Origin: Actinomadura sp. WMMA1423
Lineage (GTDB): Bacteria > Actinomycetota > Actinomycetes > Streptosporangiales > Streptosporangiaceae
DNA length: 64,000 nucleotides
Assembly: GCF_006547145.1 (NCBI RefSeq)
Contig: NZ_CP041244.1
Coordinates: 1,736,001-1,800,000, forward strand
Reading direction: 5' to 3'
Below are positions 16,474 through 21,419 of the stretch, one piece after another. The notes under the pieces were generated by a model that worked only from the letters and a program-made list of their open reading frames with translations, was not told the origin of the DNA and searched no databases. The first letter of the stretch is position 1. The number at the start of each line of letters is the position of its first letter. The position numbers and the translations under genes are program-made.

Positions 16474-17170
16474 TTTCGAGCACCTCCGCTCGGTCGGCCC
16501 CTGCCCCCGGCCGCCGCGAGGACCTGCGAGCCTTCACGATACGTACGGCGACGAACGCCGCCGCCGCCAGTCCGGCCAGCGCGAGCACGGCCGTGGAGTA
16601 GGCGCCGACGAACTCCTCGACCGTCCGCCAGTTGTCCCCGAGCCCGTATCCGGCCAGGACGAACGCCGTGTTCCACAGCAGGCTGCCGAGGGTGGTGTAG
16701 AGCAGGAAGACCCCCATGCCCATCCGCTCGACCCCCGCGGGGACGGAGATCAGGCTGCGGAAGATCGGGACCATGCGGCCGAAGAACACGGCCTTGGCGC
16801 CGTGCTTGGCGAACCACGCCTCCGTCCGGTCCAGGTCGTCGAGCTTGAGCAGCGGCAGCCGGTCCACCAGCGCGCGGATCCGGCGCCGTCCGATCAGCGC
16901 CCCGATCCCGTACAGGGCCAGCGCCCCGACCACGCTGCCGGCCGTCGTCCACACGAGCGCCGCCACCAGGCTCATCCGGCCCTGCGCCGCCGAGAATCCC
17001 GCGAGCGGGAGGATCACCTCGCTCGGCAGCGGCGGGAACAGGTTCTCCAGCGCGATCGCCAGCCCCGCCCCGGGTGCGCCCAGCCGGTCCATCAGATCCG
17101 TCGCCCACCCGGCGACGCCCCCGGCCGGCTCGCCCCCGGACGCCGCGTACATCGTCTCGATCATGTACAC
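16457..17170 (-). CDS. DedA-family inner-membrane protein
   Basis: About 237 residues with the DedA/SNARE-associated pattern: ENLFPPLPSEVILPLAGFSAAQG near residue 42, RPGxG-like turns, FAKHGAKAVFFGRMVPIFRSLISVPAGVERMGMGVFLLYTTLGSLLWNTAFVLAGYGLG, and a final membrane helix before a basic tail. DedA proteins are proton-dependent transporters or scramblases that recycle lipid carriers such as undecaprenyl phosphate and affect envelope stress resistance. Start is ATG 17170 or 17164. It leads the operon with the kinase and response regulator, an unusual pairing. Confidence 0.9.
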   Translation of the reverse strand: MYMIETMYAASGGEPAGGVAGWATDLMDRLGAPGAGLAIALENLFPPLPSEVILPLAGFSAAQGRMSLVAALVWTTAGSVVGALALYGIGALIGRRRIRALVDRLPLLKLDDLDRTEAWFAKHGAKAVFFGRMVPIFRSLISVPAGVERMGMGVFLLYTTLGSLLWNTAFVLAGYGLGDNWRTVEEFVGAYSTAVLALAGLAAAAFVAVRIVKARRSSRRPGAGADRAEVLESDRDF

Positions 17171-17377
17171 GACGCTAGGAACCGGGGCGGGCCGCCGCCA
17201 TGGAGCGCACCGCCGACCCTTCCGGCCGCGTCCCGCACCCCCTCCCCTGCGGAAAACCGCACCCCACCGCGCCCCAGACCGCCAAAACCCGGACGAGGGC
17301 GGAGAACCGCCCTAAAGTTGGATCACCGCCGTCGCCCGTTCAGGGGATCAGGGCGCACAACAGAAGGAGCCGCGCGC

Positions 17378-18193
17378 GTGGCCGACGACCTCCCAGAGAA
17401 CGCGCCTCCGGGCATCGACCCCTCCACGCCCACCTTCGCGCGCGTGTACGACTACTTCCTCGGCGGCAAGGACAACTTCGCCGCCGACCGCGAGGTGGCC
17501 GACATGGTCATGCAGCTCGTGCCGGAGGCCCCCGTCGTGGCGCAGGGCAACCGGGTCGCCATCGAGCGGGCCGTCACCTACATGGCGCGCGACCTCGGGA
17601 TCGACCAGTTCGTGGACATCGGCTCGGGGCTGCCCACCTCCTCCAACGTGCACCAGTTCGCCCGGTCGGCCAACCCCGCCGCGCGGGTCGTCTACGTCGA
17701 CAACGACCCGATCGTGCTGGCGCACGGGCGCGCGCTGCTGACCGAGAGCGGCGTCGCGACGTTCATCCAGGGCGACCTGTACGAGCCGGAGAAGATCTTC
17801 ACCGACCCCGCGCTGACGGGGCTGCTCGACCTGTCGCGGCCGGTGGGGGTCGTGCTGGCGGCGATCATCCACCACGTGCCGGACGAGCGCGACCCGGCGG
17901 GCGTCGTCCGGGCGCTGCTCCCGTTCCTGGCGCCGGGCAGCCACGTCGTGCTCACCCATCTGCACGACGCGGGGGACGACCCGCGGGTCGAGGAGGCCAA
18001 GCGCGTCCTCCAGTCGGGGCTCGGCGGGTCCTACTTCCGGCACTCCTCCGAGATCGAGCGGTTCATGGAGGGCCTCACGATCCTGGAGCCGGGGGTGGCC
18101 AACGTGACCGAATGGCGGCCCGCCGGTCCGACCGGCCCGCTGGAGCACCCCCTGCACACCCAGATGGTCGCCGTGCTCGGCCGGAAGGACTGA
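17378..18193 (+). CDS. SAM-dependent methyltransferase, DUF574 (methyltransf_19) family
   Basis: 271 residues. Signature elements are FARVYDYFLGGKDNFAADREVAD, the SAM-binding FVDIGSGLPTSSNVHQFA, VVYVDNDPIVLAHGRALL and the late VTEWRPAGP. The family is expanded in actinomycetes and its substrates are mostly unknown. GTG 17378 follows AAGGAG. A second member lies at 20622-21419 on the other strand; the two flank the finger-protein cluster. Confidence 0.9.
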   Translation: MADDLPENAPPGIDPSTPTFARVYDYFLGGKDNFAADREVADMVMQLVPEAPVVAQGNRVAIERAVTYMARDLGIDQFVDIGSGLPTSSNVHQFARSANPAARVVYVDNDPIVLAHGRALLTESGVATFIQGDLYEPEKIFTDPALTGLLDLSRPVGVVLAAIIHHVPDERDPAGVVRALLPFLAPGSHVVLTHLHDAGDDPRVEEAKRVLQSGLGGSYFRHSSEIERFMEGLTILEPGVANVTEWRPAGPTGPLEHPLHTQMVAVLGRKD

Positions 18194-18377
18194 TCGGCGG
18201 ATTCAGCGGAGAGTGAAACCGGCTCCGCCGCCCGCCGCCGCGGAGGAGCCTCGGAGGCCCGGTTCCCGCAGGCCCCGAGGTTCTGGACGGCCTCGCCGCC
18301 GGTTTCGGGCCCGGGGCACGGTCATGATCCAGGTAAAGGATCTTTTTGATCGACTTTTCCGTTGTCGGGCCTTTCTT

Positions 18378-18412
18378 GTAGCGTTCGCAGCGTTTTGTGA
18401 AGTGCATTCATG
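18378..18412 (+). promoter_or_regulatory. Upstream signature of the finger-protein gene, shared with its paralogue
   Basis: GTAGCGTTC (18378-18386), GTTTTG (18392-18397) and CATTCATG (18405-18412) occur in this order 40 bp before the gene at 18453. The same three blocks precede the paralogue at 19767. A shared promoter or activator site is the simplest reading. Confidence 0.5.
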
Positions 18413-18452
18413 ATCGGACCTTCCCGCCACAAGATCATCTGAGGACGCCGCG

Positions 18453-18947
18453 ATGCCCCTGGCGACAGGACTGGCCGCGGCCGCGCTCCTGGGCCTGCTG
18501 ACGCTCCTGGCCACCGCGCGGCGCGGCAGGTGCCGAGACCGTTCGGACGAGCACCCCGAGTCGCTCACGGCCGTCCTCGACCCGGGGGACGAGGAGTACC
18601 TCGCGTGGCTGGCCGACCACCACTGGCCGGCCGACGAGTACCTCGACCTCGAGCACGAGTGGCGCGTCGAGCTGGAGTTCGGCGAGCCGGCGGGGCACTA
18701 CGAGTCGCCGCTGTGCCCCCGGTGCGACCTGCGGCGCGAGGACGTCTGGCCGTGCCCCGCCTGCGGAAGGCTCCTGCACTCCTCCTGCGGCCACGGGATG
18801 CGGCGCCGCACCGTGGAGCGCCCGTACCGGACGCACGGCACCAACTCCGAGGCCGTCATCGCCGAGTGGATCTGCACGGGCTGCACGGCCGTCGTCGGCC
18901 TGGACGTGGACCACGGCGGCGAGCCTGACGAAGGCGTCTTGTGGTGA
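18453..18947 (+). CDS. Membrane-anchored protein with PHD/RING-like zinc finger
   Basis: 164 residues, not a family I can name. Residues 4-22 form one hydrophobic N-terminal anchor. A module HPESLTAVLDPGDEEYLA...WPADEYLDLEHE (34-69) follows, nearly repeated in the gene at 19767. The C-terminal part has C88-x2-C91, C101-x2-C104, H109-x2-C112, and W139-x-C141-x2-C144. That order and spacing, including the Trp two residues before the seventh ligand, is the C4HC3 cross-brace of PHD/RING fingers. Such fingers are rare in bacteria (the 'Prok-RING' families). Expected to face the cytoplasm behind the anchor and bind a protein partner; function unknown. Confidence 0.72.
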   Translation: MPLATGLAAAALLGLLTLLATARRGRCRDRSDEHPESLTAVLDPGDEEYLAWLADHHWPADEYLDLEHEWRVELEFGEPAGHYESPLCPRCDLRREDVWPCPACGRLLHSSCGHGMRRRTVERPYRTHGTNSEAVIAEWICTGCTAVVGLDVDHGGEPDEGVLW

Positions 18948-19087
18948 ATCGGCCCTGATTGCCCGAGCTTCGGCGGATTCACACGTGTTCGTTGGTAAAA
19001 AATTCGTCATCCACTTGCATATTTCGGACGTGGCGCGGCAGGCTGAAGTTTGTCCTTAAACACGTGGGACACCCGTGGAGGAACCCT

Positions 19088-19297
19088 GTGACCGCCGAAC
19101 ACCGCACCATCTGCACGCACGAGCCGCTCTGTCCGCAGCCGGACGACCTCGACCGCGAGGCCGCGCGCATCGTCGCCGCCCACCCCGAGCAGGGGTGGAG
19201 CCTTCTCTGCAACGGCGTCGTCGTCTTCGACGACACCGGCGAACTGCTTCCCGACGGGCGCGTCATCGCCCCGCACCGCCCCACCACGGCCGCCTAG
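19088..19297 (+). CDS. DUF5999 family protein
   Basis: 69 residues: ICTHEPLCPQPDDLDREAARIVAAHPEQGWSLLCNGVVVFDDTGELLPDGRVIAPHRP is characteristic of DUF5999, a very conserved small protein of streptomycetes and relatives with no known function. The Cys pair near the start (C-T-H-E-P-L-C) may bind a metal. GTG 19088 is set by GGAGG 5 bases upstream. It sits between the two DPGDEEYLA paralogues. Confidence 0.85.
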   Translation: MTAEHRTICTHEPLCPQPDDLDREAARIVAAHPEQGWSLLCNGVVVFDDTGELLPDGRVIAPHRPTTAA

Positions 19298-19697
19298 ACC
19301 CGCGGCCCCCACCGGCACGCCCATCTGACGGCCTGCCGGCCCCCTCCGGCGCCGGGCGAGCCCCTCCACGCCGCCCGCGCCACCGCACCGCTCCGGCAGT
19401 CGCCCGGGACCGGTGCCGTTCTCTCTGTCGCGGCCCATGCCGAGACCACTTTTCCGCACCCGCATCCGGCGACCACCAGCGGATTCCATCCCTCACACCA
19501 AAGCCTGGCAGCATGCGCCGCGATTCCGCGTGTCGCGGCACTCCCGCGCGGAGATCGCGCCAGCCTTGGAGAAGTGATCGGACCGGACGGGGCGGCCCAG
19601 CCGCCCGTCGCCGGTCCGCGCGCGCCCGCGGGAGCCTCCACGGGATCTTCGTCTCGAGCGGTTCGCATGTCGGGCTCCCATCCGGCGGGCGATCCCG
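19298..19697. other. Gene-free stretch between DUF5999 and the paralogue
   Basis: About 400 bases. The open frames present are antisense or have no start signal and no family resemblance. I see no clear terminator or repeat. Confidence 0.4.
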
Positions 19698-19736
19698 GTA
19701 GCGTTCAACTGTTTTGCTACTTACGCAACATTCATG
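19698..19736 (+). promoter_or_regulatory. Upstream signature of the paralogue gene
   Basis: GTAGCGTTC (19698-19706), GTTTTG (19711-19716) and CATTCATG (19729-19736), the same blocks as at 18378-18412 with slightly different spacers. The identity stops outside this region. Confidence 0.5.
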
Positions 19737-19766
19737 CGGAACTCGACCGCGGAAGGACGGTGTGGT

Positions 19767-20084
19767 GTGGTCACAGTCCAGGTCCTCGCGTCCCTGGTCG
19801 CCCTGTTCGGCCTCTTCCTGCCGAATCTCCTCCACCCCATGCAGCCGCGACCCGTCCCGGAGCCGCAGGGGCTCGCCCCCGAGGCCCCGCGCCCCGTCGC
19901 GGTCCCTCCCCCGGCCGCCGAGCCCCCGGGCCACCCGGAGTCCATGACCGCCGAACTGGACCCCGGCGACGAGGAGTACCTCGCCTTCGTGGCCGACGAG
20001 CTCTGGCCCGACGACGAGTACCTGGAGCTTGAGCACACCTCCGACGGCGAAGAGGAGTCCGGCGGCAGCAGCATGCTCAGGTGA
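19767..20084 (+). CDS. Membrane-anchored paralogue of the finger protein, lacking the finger
   Basis: 105 residues from GTG 19767 (GAAGGA about 9 bases upstream; ATG 19734 is possible but lies in the promoter block). One N-terminal hydrophobic helix (about 4-22), a Pro-rich linker (25-54), then HPESMTAELDPGDEEYLA...WPDDEYLELEH (56-90) and a short acidic tail. The module matches residues 34-66 of the protein at 18453 at 25 of 33 positions. It ends where the other protein continues into its zinc finger, so it may be a competing or accessory subunit. No known family. Confidence 0.65.
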   Translation: MVTVQVLASLVALFGLFLPNLLHPMQPRPVPEPQGLAPEAPRPVAVPPPAAEPPGHPESMTAELDPGDEEYLAFVADELWPDDEYLELEHTSDGEEESGGSSMLR

Positions 20085-20123
20085 CGGATCGGGTGGCCGT
20101 GGAGCGTTTCGGCACGCGACCGG

Positions 20124-20594
20124 TCAGGTGGTGGGGAGCGGGGCCCCGGTCTCCAGGAGGGTCTTGAGGCCGGACAGGACGTGCGGCCAGCCCTCCCGGG
20201 ACATGCCGAGCAGCACCTCCCCGCCCTCGTGGACCACGGTCAGCCTCACCGTCCCCCCGACGGGTTCGAGTTCGAAGGTCACCTTCGAGCGGGGCTCCAG
20301 GAGCAGCCTGGCCCGGGTCTCCTCGTCCACGCCGGTGGCCCGCCCCCACTCCGGCGTGAAGGTGTGCCAGGTGTAGGAGAGGCGCCGGCCCGGCTCCGCT
20401 TCGAGGACGACCTGCTCGGGATGGGACGTCGACGCGCCCTCCTCGTGCCAGATGACGGCGGACCCGGGCTTCCAGTCGGTCTCGAAGGCCACGCCCCAGT
20501 AGCGGCGGGTGAGGTCCGGTTCGGTGAGCGCCTCCCAGAGCCGCTCCGGCGTGGTGCCGATGTACAGCGTGTAGACGAACTCGGTTCCGGTCAT
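20124..20594 (-). CDS. SRPBCC (AHSA1-like) family protein
   Basis: 156 residues of the START/Bet v1-like AHSA1 type: FVYTLYIGTTPERLWEALTEPDLTRRYWGVAFETDWKPGSAVIW near the start and GGTVRLTVVHEGGEVLLGMSREGWPHVLSGLKTLLETG at the end. These hydrophobic-pocket proteins bind lipids or small molecules; no substrate can be inferred. In actinobacteria they often pair with ArsR regulators, but here the gene lies 27 bases downstream of a DUF574 methyltransferase on the same strand, so co-transcription is likely. Confidence 0.85.
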   Translation of the reverse strand: MTGTEFVYTLYIGTTPERLWEALTEPDLTRRYWGVAFETDWKPGSAVIWHEEGASTSHPEQVVLEAEPGRRLSYTWHTFTPEWGRATGVDEETRARLLLEPRSKVTFELEPVGGTVRLTVVHEGGEVLLGMSREGWPHVLSGLKTLLETGAPLPTT

Positions 20595-20621
20595 CGGGGC
20601 CTGTTCCGTGCGAGGTCGGGT

Positions 20622-21419
20622 CTAGGGTTTGCGGCCCACGGCGCCGTAGGCGTCGACGGCCTCCGGCTCGGCGGCCGCGTCCGGCCGCCAGTGCGTCACC
20701 GGGACGACGCCCGGCTCCACCAGTTCCAGCCCGTCGAAGAAGCGCCCGATCTCCTCGGGCGTCCGCAGGACGAGGTGCGCGTTGCCCGAGGCGTTCCAGA
20801 CGTCCACGATGCGGTCGGACGCCTCGCCGTGCACGACGTTCGTCCCGTCGTACATGGCGAGGTAGCTGCCCGAGGGCACCGCGTCCATGAGCCGCCGCAC
20901 GATCCCGTACGCCTGGTCGTCGTCCGGGACGAACTCCAGGATGCCCATCAGCGTGAACGCGACCGGCTTCCCGAGGTCGAGCGTCTCGGCGGCGCTCTCC
21001 AGGATCGAGTCGGGATCGCGCAGGTCCGCGTGGATGTAGGCGGTGTTCCCCTCGGGCGTGCTGGTGAGCAGGCCCTTCGCGTGCTCCAGGACCAGGGGGT
21101 CGTTGTCGACGTAGACGATCCTCGACGCGGGCGCGGCGCGCTGGGCGACCTCGTGGGTGTTGTCCACCGTCGGCAGCCCCGTGCCGATGTCGACGAACTG
21201 CCGGATCCCGGCCTCGGCGGCCAGGTGCCACACCACCCGGTTCAGGAACAACCGGGAGGCGCGCGCCAGCCGGGCGACGTCCGGCAGCATCCCGAGGATC
21301 TGGTCTCCGACCTCGCGGTCCACCGGGTAGTTGTCCTTGCCGCCCAGCCAGTAGTTCCAGATGCGCGCCACGTGCGGGACGCTCGTGTCGATGCCGGGCA
21401 CGGGCCTCTGGTCGCTCAT
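20622..21419 (-). CDS. SAM-dependent methyltransferase, DUF574 (methyltransf_19) family
   Basis: 265 residues with PHVARIWNYWLGGKDNYPVDREVGDQI, FVDIGTGLPTVDNTHEVAQ, IVYVDNDPLVLEHAKGLL and VVPVTHWRPDAAA. It is clearly a paralogue of the product at 17378-18193 but too diverged to be a recent duplicate. ATG 21419 starts it. It precedes the AHSA1-like gene. Substrate unknown. Confidence 0.9.
   Translation of the reverse strand: MSDQRPVPGIDTSVPHVARIWNYWLGGKDNYPVDREVGDQILGMLPDVARLARASRLFLNRVVWHLAAEAGIRQFVDIGTGLPTVDNTHEVAQRAAPASRIVYVDNDPLVLEHAKGLLTSTPEGNTAYIHADLRDPDSILESAAETLDLGKPVAFTLMGILEFVPDDDQAYGIVRRLMDAVPSGSYLAMYDGTNVVHGEASDRIVDVWNASGNAHLVLRTPEEIGRFFDGLELVEPGVVPVTHWRPDAAAEPEAVDAYGAVGRKP

Follow-up and report, generated by a model that had tools for sequence, protein, structure and literature searches.

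Gene F (positions 18453 to 18947, + strand) lies in a 64,000-nucleotide stretch of Actinomadura sp. WMMA1423 DNA (contig NZ_CP041244.1, positions 1,736,001 to 1,800,000; the window), part of a 9.53-Mb genome held on a single contig. We found that F encodes a 164-aa, single-pass membrane protein with an eight-ligand zinc finger, as judged from the open reading frame (ORF), alignments, and the ratio of nonsynonymous to synonymous substitution rates (dN/dS). New here is a finger-less paralogue, S (19767 to 20084, + strand; 105 aa, GTG start), which shares with F the membrane helix, a conserved module, and a promoter-like upstream core. We tentatively propose, as a reading with close to an even chance of being right, that F is a single-pass membrane docking protein whose separable two-zinc finger has cross-brace pairing, with S as a modulator consisting of the docking half.

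The anatomy of F is solid. An N-terminal membrane helix (residues 3 to 25; 18459 to 18527, + strand) is followed by a module of the form PES...EEYLAxxAxxxWPxDEYL (residues 33 to 72; 18549 to 18668, + strand), which is common to F and S and has 14 invariant columns in an alignment of 30 sequences (A3). The zinc-finger domain (residues 86 to 152; 18708 to 18908, + strand), delimited from a finger alignment (A2) and an AlphaFold2 (AF2) model, carries the ligands C88, C91, C101, C104, H109, C112, C141, and C144. A GAGGA ribosome site lies 5' of the ATG start, and the codon-position bias is consistent with a gene. A preliminary description of the window had named the coordinates, frame, length, and residues of this ORF, and all proved exact on re-reading. 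It had also placed one N-terminal membrane helix in the protein, which AF2 models as a helix and which has hydropathy support in 54 of the 55 orthologues with a usable N terminus. An Arg-rich stretch follows this helix in F, as in the positive-inside pattern, and lysine and arginine are more frequent after than before the helix in 54/55 orthologues (means of 4.5 in 15 residues versus 0.07 in up to 10). Because of this excess, the finger is predicted to face the cytoplasm, where the rest of the C-terminal part would also lie. In Actinomadura sp. J1-007 (L063; G027:C2:166325-166851), the finger protein is encoded in two frames, one for its first ~30 residues and another for the remainder, owing to either a frameshift or a sequencing error.

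Conservation, selection, and distribution of the finger

A scan of named records yielded 62 loci, 59 of them with a finger (L032 to L090); because it used two short peptide patterns, it finds close relatives. All eight ligands are invariant in an alignment of 29 sequences (A1), in A2 (34 fingers, from the window and 33 of the 59 loci, 53 to 99% identical to the window), and in every one of the 59 named orthologues. The expectation that orthologues would keep all eight ligands thus holds wherever the finger is present and fails in two species from which the finger is wholly missing. The spacing C-x2-C-x9-C-x2-C-x4-H-x2-C-x27-30-C-x2-C is found in 59/59 orthologues; a stricter regular expression matched 58, the exception (L037) being one residue shorter before the seventh ligand with all ligands kept. 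As the preliminary description had observed, the ligands form a C4HC3 set with a tryptophan two residues before the seventh, and this arrangement is invariant, with W139 present in all 34 sequences of A2. W99 is invariant alongside W139 in both A1 and A2, and besides the ligands the invariant columns of A2 (residue numbers converted from alignment columns) include W99, P100, G105, G113, G115, Y125, V135, E138, W139, V148, L150, and D151. As a candidate ninth ligand, H114 is not conserved in A2 (Y in L081 to L083, L in L086).

Across nine orthologue pairs, the dN/dS of the finger was 0, 0.04, 0.05, 0.06, 0.07, 0.12, 0.16, 0.18, and 0.71, the last of which (L057/L061) rests on few changes; in 7/9 pairs the finger value was below that of the module. 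These ratios indicate that F is under purifying selection. To gauge chance occurrence, a loose eight-ligand and a strict PHD-like regular expression were run over 1,905,466 open six-frame residues from the window and the 62 loci, a set that represents the surroundings of the F gene and not whole genomes; F was matched in 60 sources, and no other gene was.

Among named records, relatives were found only in Actinomadura, Spirillospora, Thermomonospora, Actinoallomurus, and one Streptosporangiaceae metagenome-assembled genome. Matches were found in 36 of 59 related genomes (own included), all of one genus, and in 77 of 341 family genomes, representing 6 of 68 genera; four genomes of the same genus had no match. 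According to the match table, 73 of the 77 have the finger, three (G003, G011, and G017) match the N-terminal half only, and one (G091) is weak (E = 4.8e-4). Profiles of the finger (A2) and the module (A3), each run against 394 genomes of the class, gave nothing convincing beyond the family: A2 had 11 matches at E up to 0.01, 4 of them strong and all in the family (own included), and the remaining 7, which are partial (E = 2.6e-4 to 4.9e-3), are regarded as chance, while A3 had 6, of which 4 are strong family matches and two lie at E = 0.008 to 0.009. With tblastn, F had no match in the phage or plasmid collections, and none of the 21 stretches of viral contigs that fit a pattern was a relative.

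The finger-less paralogue and the shared upstream core

S lies 0.8 kb downstream of F and, in the module alignment A3, carries the same module (PES-x-T...EEYLA-x2-A-x3-WP-x-DEYL) behind its own membrane helix (hydropathy of 2.33 over residues 2 to 18), with no finger and no Pfam match. In the window and the 62 loci, the module motif marked 59 finger genes (all but that of L087) and 44 finger-less genes, the latter including two truncated F orthologues. F occurs without S in 7 Actinoallomurus-type and 2 Thermomonospora loci, and family genomes outside the genus have one match each. The simplest history would be that F was duplicated in the Actinomadura line and that S then lost its finger. The two truncated orthologues, in A. 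atramentaria (L091, 9953-10198) and A. rayongensis (L092, 6932-7159), end just before the finger; their module, upstream core, DUF5999 gene, and S are all still present, and no finger was found in three frames of the ~570 bases downstream. Because these F orthologues have no finger, the finger is separable and the module can persist alone.

The promoter-like core, GTAGCGTTC-N3-6-GTTTTG, lies upstream of F at 18378 to 18397 and upstream of S at 19698 to 19716 (both + strand), and these are the only two sites in the genome, with none for a reversed control. Among 16 aligned sequences of the genus, conservation upstream of F is strong. When loosened, the pattern matched 66 times in 1.17 Mb (window and named loci), always on the strand of the genes and never on the opposite one; 64 matches precede F or S, and the other two lie 159 and 172 bases from the ends of their contigs, in loci whose sequence contains no S. 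A variant form precedes 39/59 F genes and 31/44 finger-less genes. Because the pattern came from these same sequences, on which the loci are centered, its closeness to F and S is in part built in, which is not true of the absence of matches elsewhere. The distribution of the core marks it as a private element of the two genes, and it is their putative promoter.

A further box, TTGATCGACTTTTCC (18346 to 18360, + strand), precedes F only, and its first 14 bases, with 1 mismatch allowed, have a single site in the genome. Written as TGATCGA[CT]TTT[TC]C, it matched 45 times in the loci: 44 matches precede F (44/59), none precedes any of the 44 finger-less genes, and the 45th precedes the F of L087 that the module motif had missed. 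The combination of box and core occurs once in the genome. A common core thus seems to serve both F and S, with the box as an additional input to F alone. Beside the F ribosome site of the window is also an inverted repeat, TCATGATC...GATCAT (18408-18438), the pattern of which recurs in 35/55 orthologues. Rfam at gathering scores detected no known RNA in window positions 17000 to 21000.

Fold, proposed mechanism, and rival readings

The finger domain was modeled by AF2 with a predicted local distance difference test score of 86 and a predicted template modeling score of 0.72. Strands 98-100 and 107-109 flank C101-x2-C104, strands 134-141 and 147-152 flank C141-x2-C144, and the W-x-C-x2-C pattern occurs twice (W99 and W139). 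An Arg-rich β-hairpin (residues 116 to 141) separates ligands 6 and 7, its strand 116-126 following ligands 5 and 6; no helix in the domain reaches 4 residues, and C88/C91 are not flanked by any hairpin with strands of at least three residues. Strand 147-152 follows the last ligand, C144, and its sheet pairing with the primary hairpin is not visible. The C101/C104 and C141/C144 knuckles could share one zinc, which would leave C88/C91 with H109/C112. Zinc binding is predicted, and the strand positions of the model would fit a cross-brace pairing of ligands 1-2-5-6 and 3-4-7-8.

The finger had been described as PHD- or RING-like, and membership in either family was not supported. PHD fingers bind histone-tail-like peptides and have the ligand order C4HC3 with four or five residues between ligands 4 and 5 (C4-x4/5-H5), and the spacing of F is PHD spacing: that interval is present in 59/59 orthologues. 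The aromatic residue that PHD fingers carry two positions before ligand 7, as the preliminary description noted, is W139 in all 34 sequences of A2. The Pfam PHD model (PF00628), however, scored F at 9.2 bits versus a cutoff of 24 and exceeded its cutoff in 0/100 family genomes and 0/14 controls, and the predicted fold is not the standard one. A profile search of the Protein Data Bank returned PHD fingers as 6 of 12 sequences at E up to 10, and both PHF24 entries (E = 0.035 and 0.18) aligned in register over all eight ligands. Structure searches (Foldseek and VIA-align realignment) had no PHD chain among the matches listed, which is not decisive against PHD; the top-ranked solved structures were β-tent domains, all weak. 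A viral structure library also gave weak matches only, the best (E = 0.12) being a phage restriction-alleviation protein. RING domains have 2 or 3 residues between ligands 4 and 5, and Burroughs is said to have described prokaryotic ones in 2011. With Prok-RING_1 (PF14446), the window protein gave no match at E up to 10, and 4/29 members matched (best E = 0.98). In PMC4506424, treble clefs are characterized by a helix beginning at ligands 5 and 6, by a last ligand just before a C-terminal strand that forms a three-stranded sheet with the primary hairpin, and, when binuclear, by a zinc-ribbon-like second site; the AF2 model of F has no such helix. No model in Pfam or NCBIfam scored F or S above cutoff, and PADLOC gave no match at all.

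We propose that F would sit in the inner membrane as a single-pass protein with its C-terminal part in the cytoplasm. Its acidic-aromatic, probably helical juxtamembrane module may dock a partner, or pair with itself or with S. The finger would bind two zinc ions, most likely through C88, C91, H109, and C112 and through C101, C104, C141, and C144, and the Arg-rich hairpin could recruit a second ligand, probably acidic or a protein, to the membrane. S, having the docking half only and the same promoter-like core, would compete with F or modulate it. What we say of docking and recruitment and of what S does is guesswork, as is the protein-interaction hub suggested in the preliminary description, and our confidence in the function of F is modest. 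Several observations weigh against this proposal. The AF2 model of the module is of low confidence (block means of 34 to 55), every fold and profile match is weak, and matches to the KMT2D PHD finger reach the first half only, with GATA fingers and others interleaved. The Arg-rich strand could be just structural, the loosened core precedes 31/59 F genes and 33/44 finger-less genes, and no neighbor is constant across genera to name a partner of F.

It is conceivable, if rather doubtful, that the finger represents a previously unrecorded binuclear fold of bacteria, built on a zinc-ribbon- or β-tent-like hairpin core that an added knuckle cross-braces; it would have PHD order without PHD ancestry and would form the cytoplasmic ligand-binding head of a lineage-specific F/S membrane docking pair with its own promoter. 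In another reading, the finger would be a small β-tent-like ligand-binding domain, with C101, C104, C141, and C144 holding an apical zinc, the other four ligands an added zinc, and a cradle that binds a small molecule, peptide, or nucleic acid; such a relative or look-alike of Mis18/yippee, the cereblon CULT domain, and the RIG-I C-terminal domain (CTD) we consider unlikely. More doubtful still are serial zinc sites without a cross-brace, a short ribbon of C88/C91/C101/C104 followed by H109/C112/C141/C144. Residues 85 to 109 do resemble a zinc-ribbon knuckle, and the Cas12f TNB model matches 28/29 members at E up to 10 (best E = 0.0059; window protein, 14.6 bits versus a cutoff of 26.3), but the hairpin knuckles of the model are C101/C104 and C141/C144, with C88/C91 unflanked, and the PHF24 alignment spans all eight ligands in register.

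Two further readings concern function and leave the fold aside. Seven cysteines and a histidine in a cytoplasmic, membrane-anchored domain, together with a box upstream of F only, would suit a thiol- or zinc-responsive sensor in which metal loss or cysteine oxidation frees a partner. We think this quite improbable: A1 and A2 contain no other conserved cysteine, the seven neighbors scanned include no sigma factor or thiol-redox gene, and the finger is not the H-x3-C-x2-C anti-sigma motif. An accessory role in the actinobacterial G-protein system, the conservon CvnABCD, seems very improbable. Conservon genes precede F, on its own strand, in 6/7 Actinoallomurus-type loci (L074, L078, L081, L082, L085, and L090), and in 5 of these 6 cvnD ends 325 to 429 bp upstream of where the F match begins; cvnC was not found in L090, and L083 has no conservon. 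This linkage, however, fails beyond the Actinoallomurus-type loci, with no conservon at E = 1e-10 in the window or any of the remaining 55 loci. Known conservon accessories accompany kinases without a sensory domain (PMC13343842), and an accessory-sensor role is disfavored because a NIT sensor domain is present in both CvnA proteins checked (conservon domains were checked in L074 and L085 alone). The record of L085 is titled Actinomadura sp. DC4, and by eye its sequence is Actinoallomurus-like.

Neighboring genes and comparison with known systems

Between F and S lies a DUF5999 gene (19088 to 19297, + strand; 69 aa; PF19462, 118.5 bits), which is present in 45 of the 63 sources (window and 62 loci). 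Within the DNA scanned, all 7 Actinoallomurus-type and both Thermomonospora loci lack it, as do L073 and L075 to L077, which are Actinomadura loci with both paralogues. As an obligate partner of F it was rejected, being missing from those loci, and it is probably independent of the pair; no paper in the literature searched names DUF5999. Methyltransf_19 genes (PF04672) flank the pair at 17345-18193 (+ strand) and 20622-21419 (− strand), and these, together with histidine kinase, VTT, AHSA1, and acyl-CoA dehydrogenase genes, look like ordinary synteny.

Eight-ligand cross-brace fingers are a hallmark of eukaryotic chromatin and ubiquitin proteins, and to our knowledge clear bacterial cases are few. 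Literature listings on bacterial or prokaryotic PHD fingers gave an unrelated paper and a zinc-finger nuclear magnetic resonance review; those on horizontal transfer nowhere mentioned a PHD finger; and no listed paper joined Actinomadura to a PHD finger or Actinomadura and Actinoallomurus to a zinc finger. A compact, invariant, membrane-tethered finger with a finger-less paralogue and natural finger-less species offers a direct route to the question of whether such fingers arose from PHD-like ancestors or by addition of zinc to a ribbon or β-tent core. The same system bears on the role of such fingers in cells without histones or ubiquitin.

Among known domains, the finger resembles PHD fingers, especially the divergent PHD of PHF24/KIAA1045 (1wil and 5xht; PF16744, zf-RING_15), in its C4HC3 order and the tryptophan before ligand 7. 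It differs from them in scoring below curated cutoffs, in being bacterial and membrane tethered, and, in the AF2 model, in a strand (147-152) that follows the last ligand and in the long hairpin between ligands 6 and 7. β-Tent domains (Mis18/yippee, cereblon CULT, and RIG-I CTD), defined by two β-meanders at a right angle and one zinc held by two CxxC knuckles, share with the AF2 model two C-x2-C knuckles on β-hairpins and are the top-ranked folds, yet the scores are weak, the domain of F is smaller, and four of its invariant ligands are extra and unneeded by the described fold. RING-like binuclear treble clefs, including Prok-RING, are similar to the finger in their eight ligands and, going by the AF2 model and PMC4506424, in a last ligand just before a C-terminal strand, whereas F has four residues between ligands 4 and 5 and no modeled helix after ligands 5 and 6.
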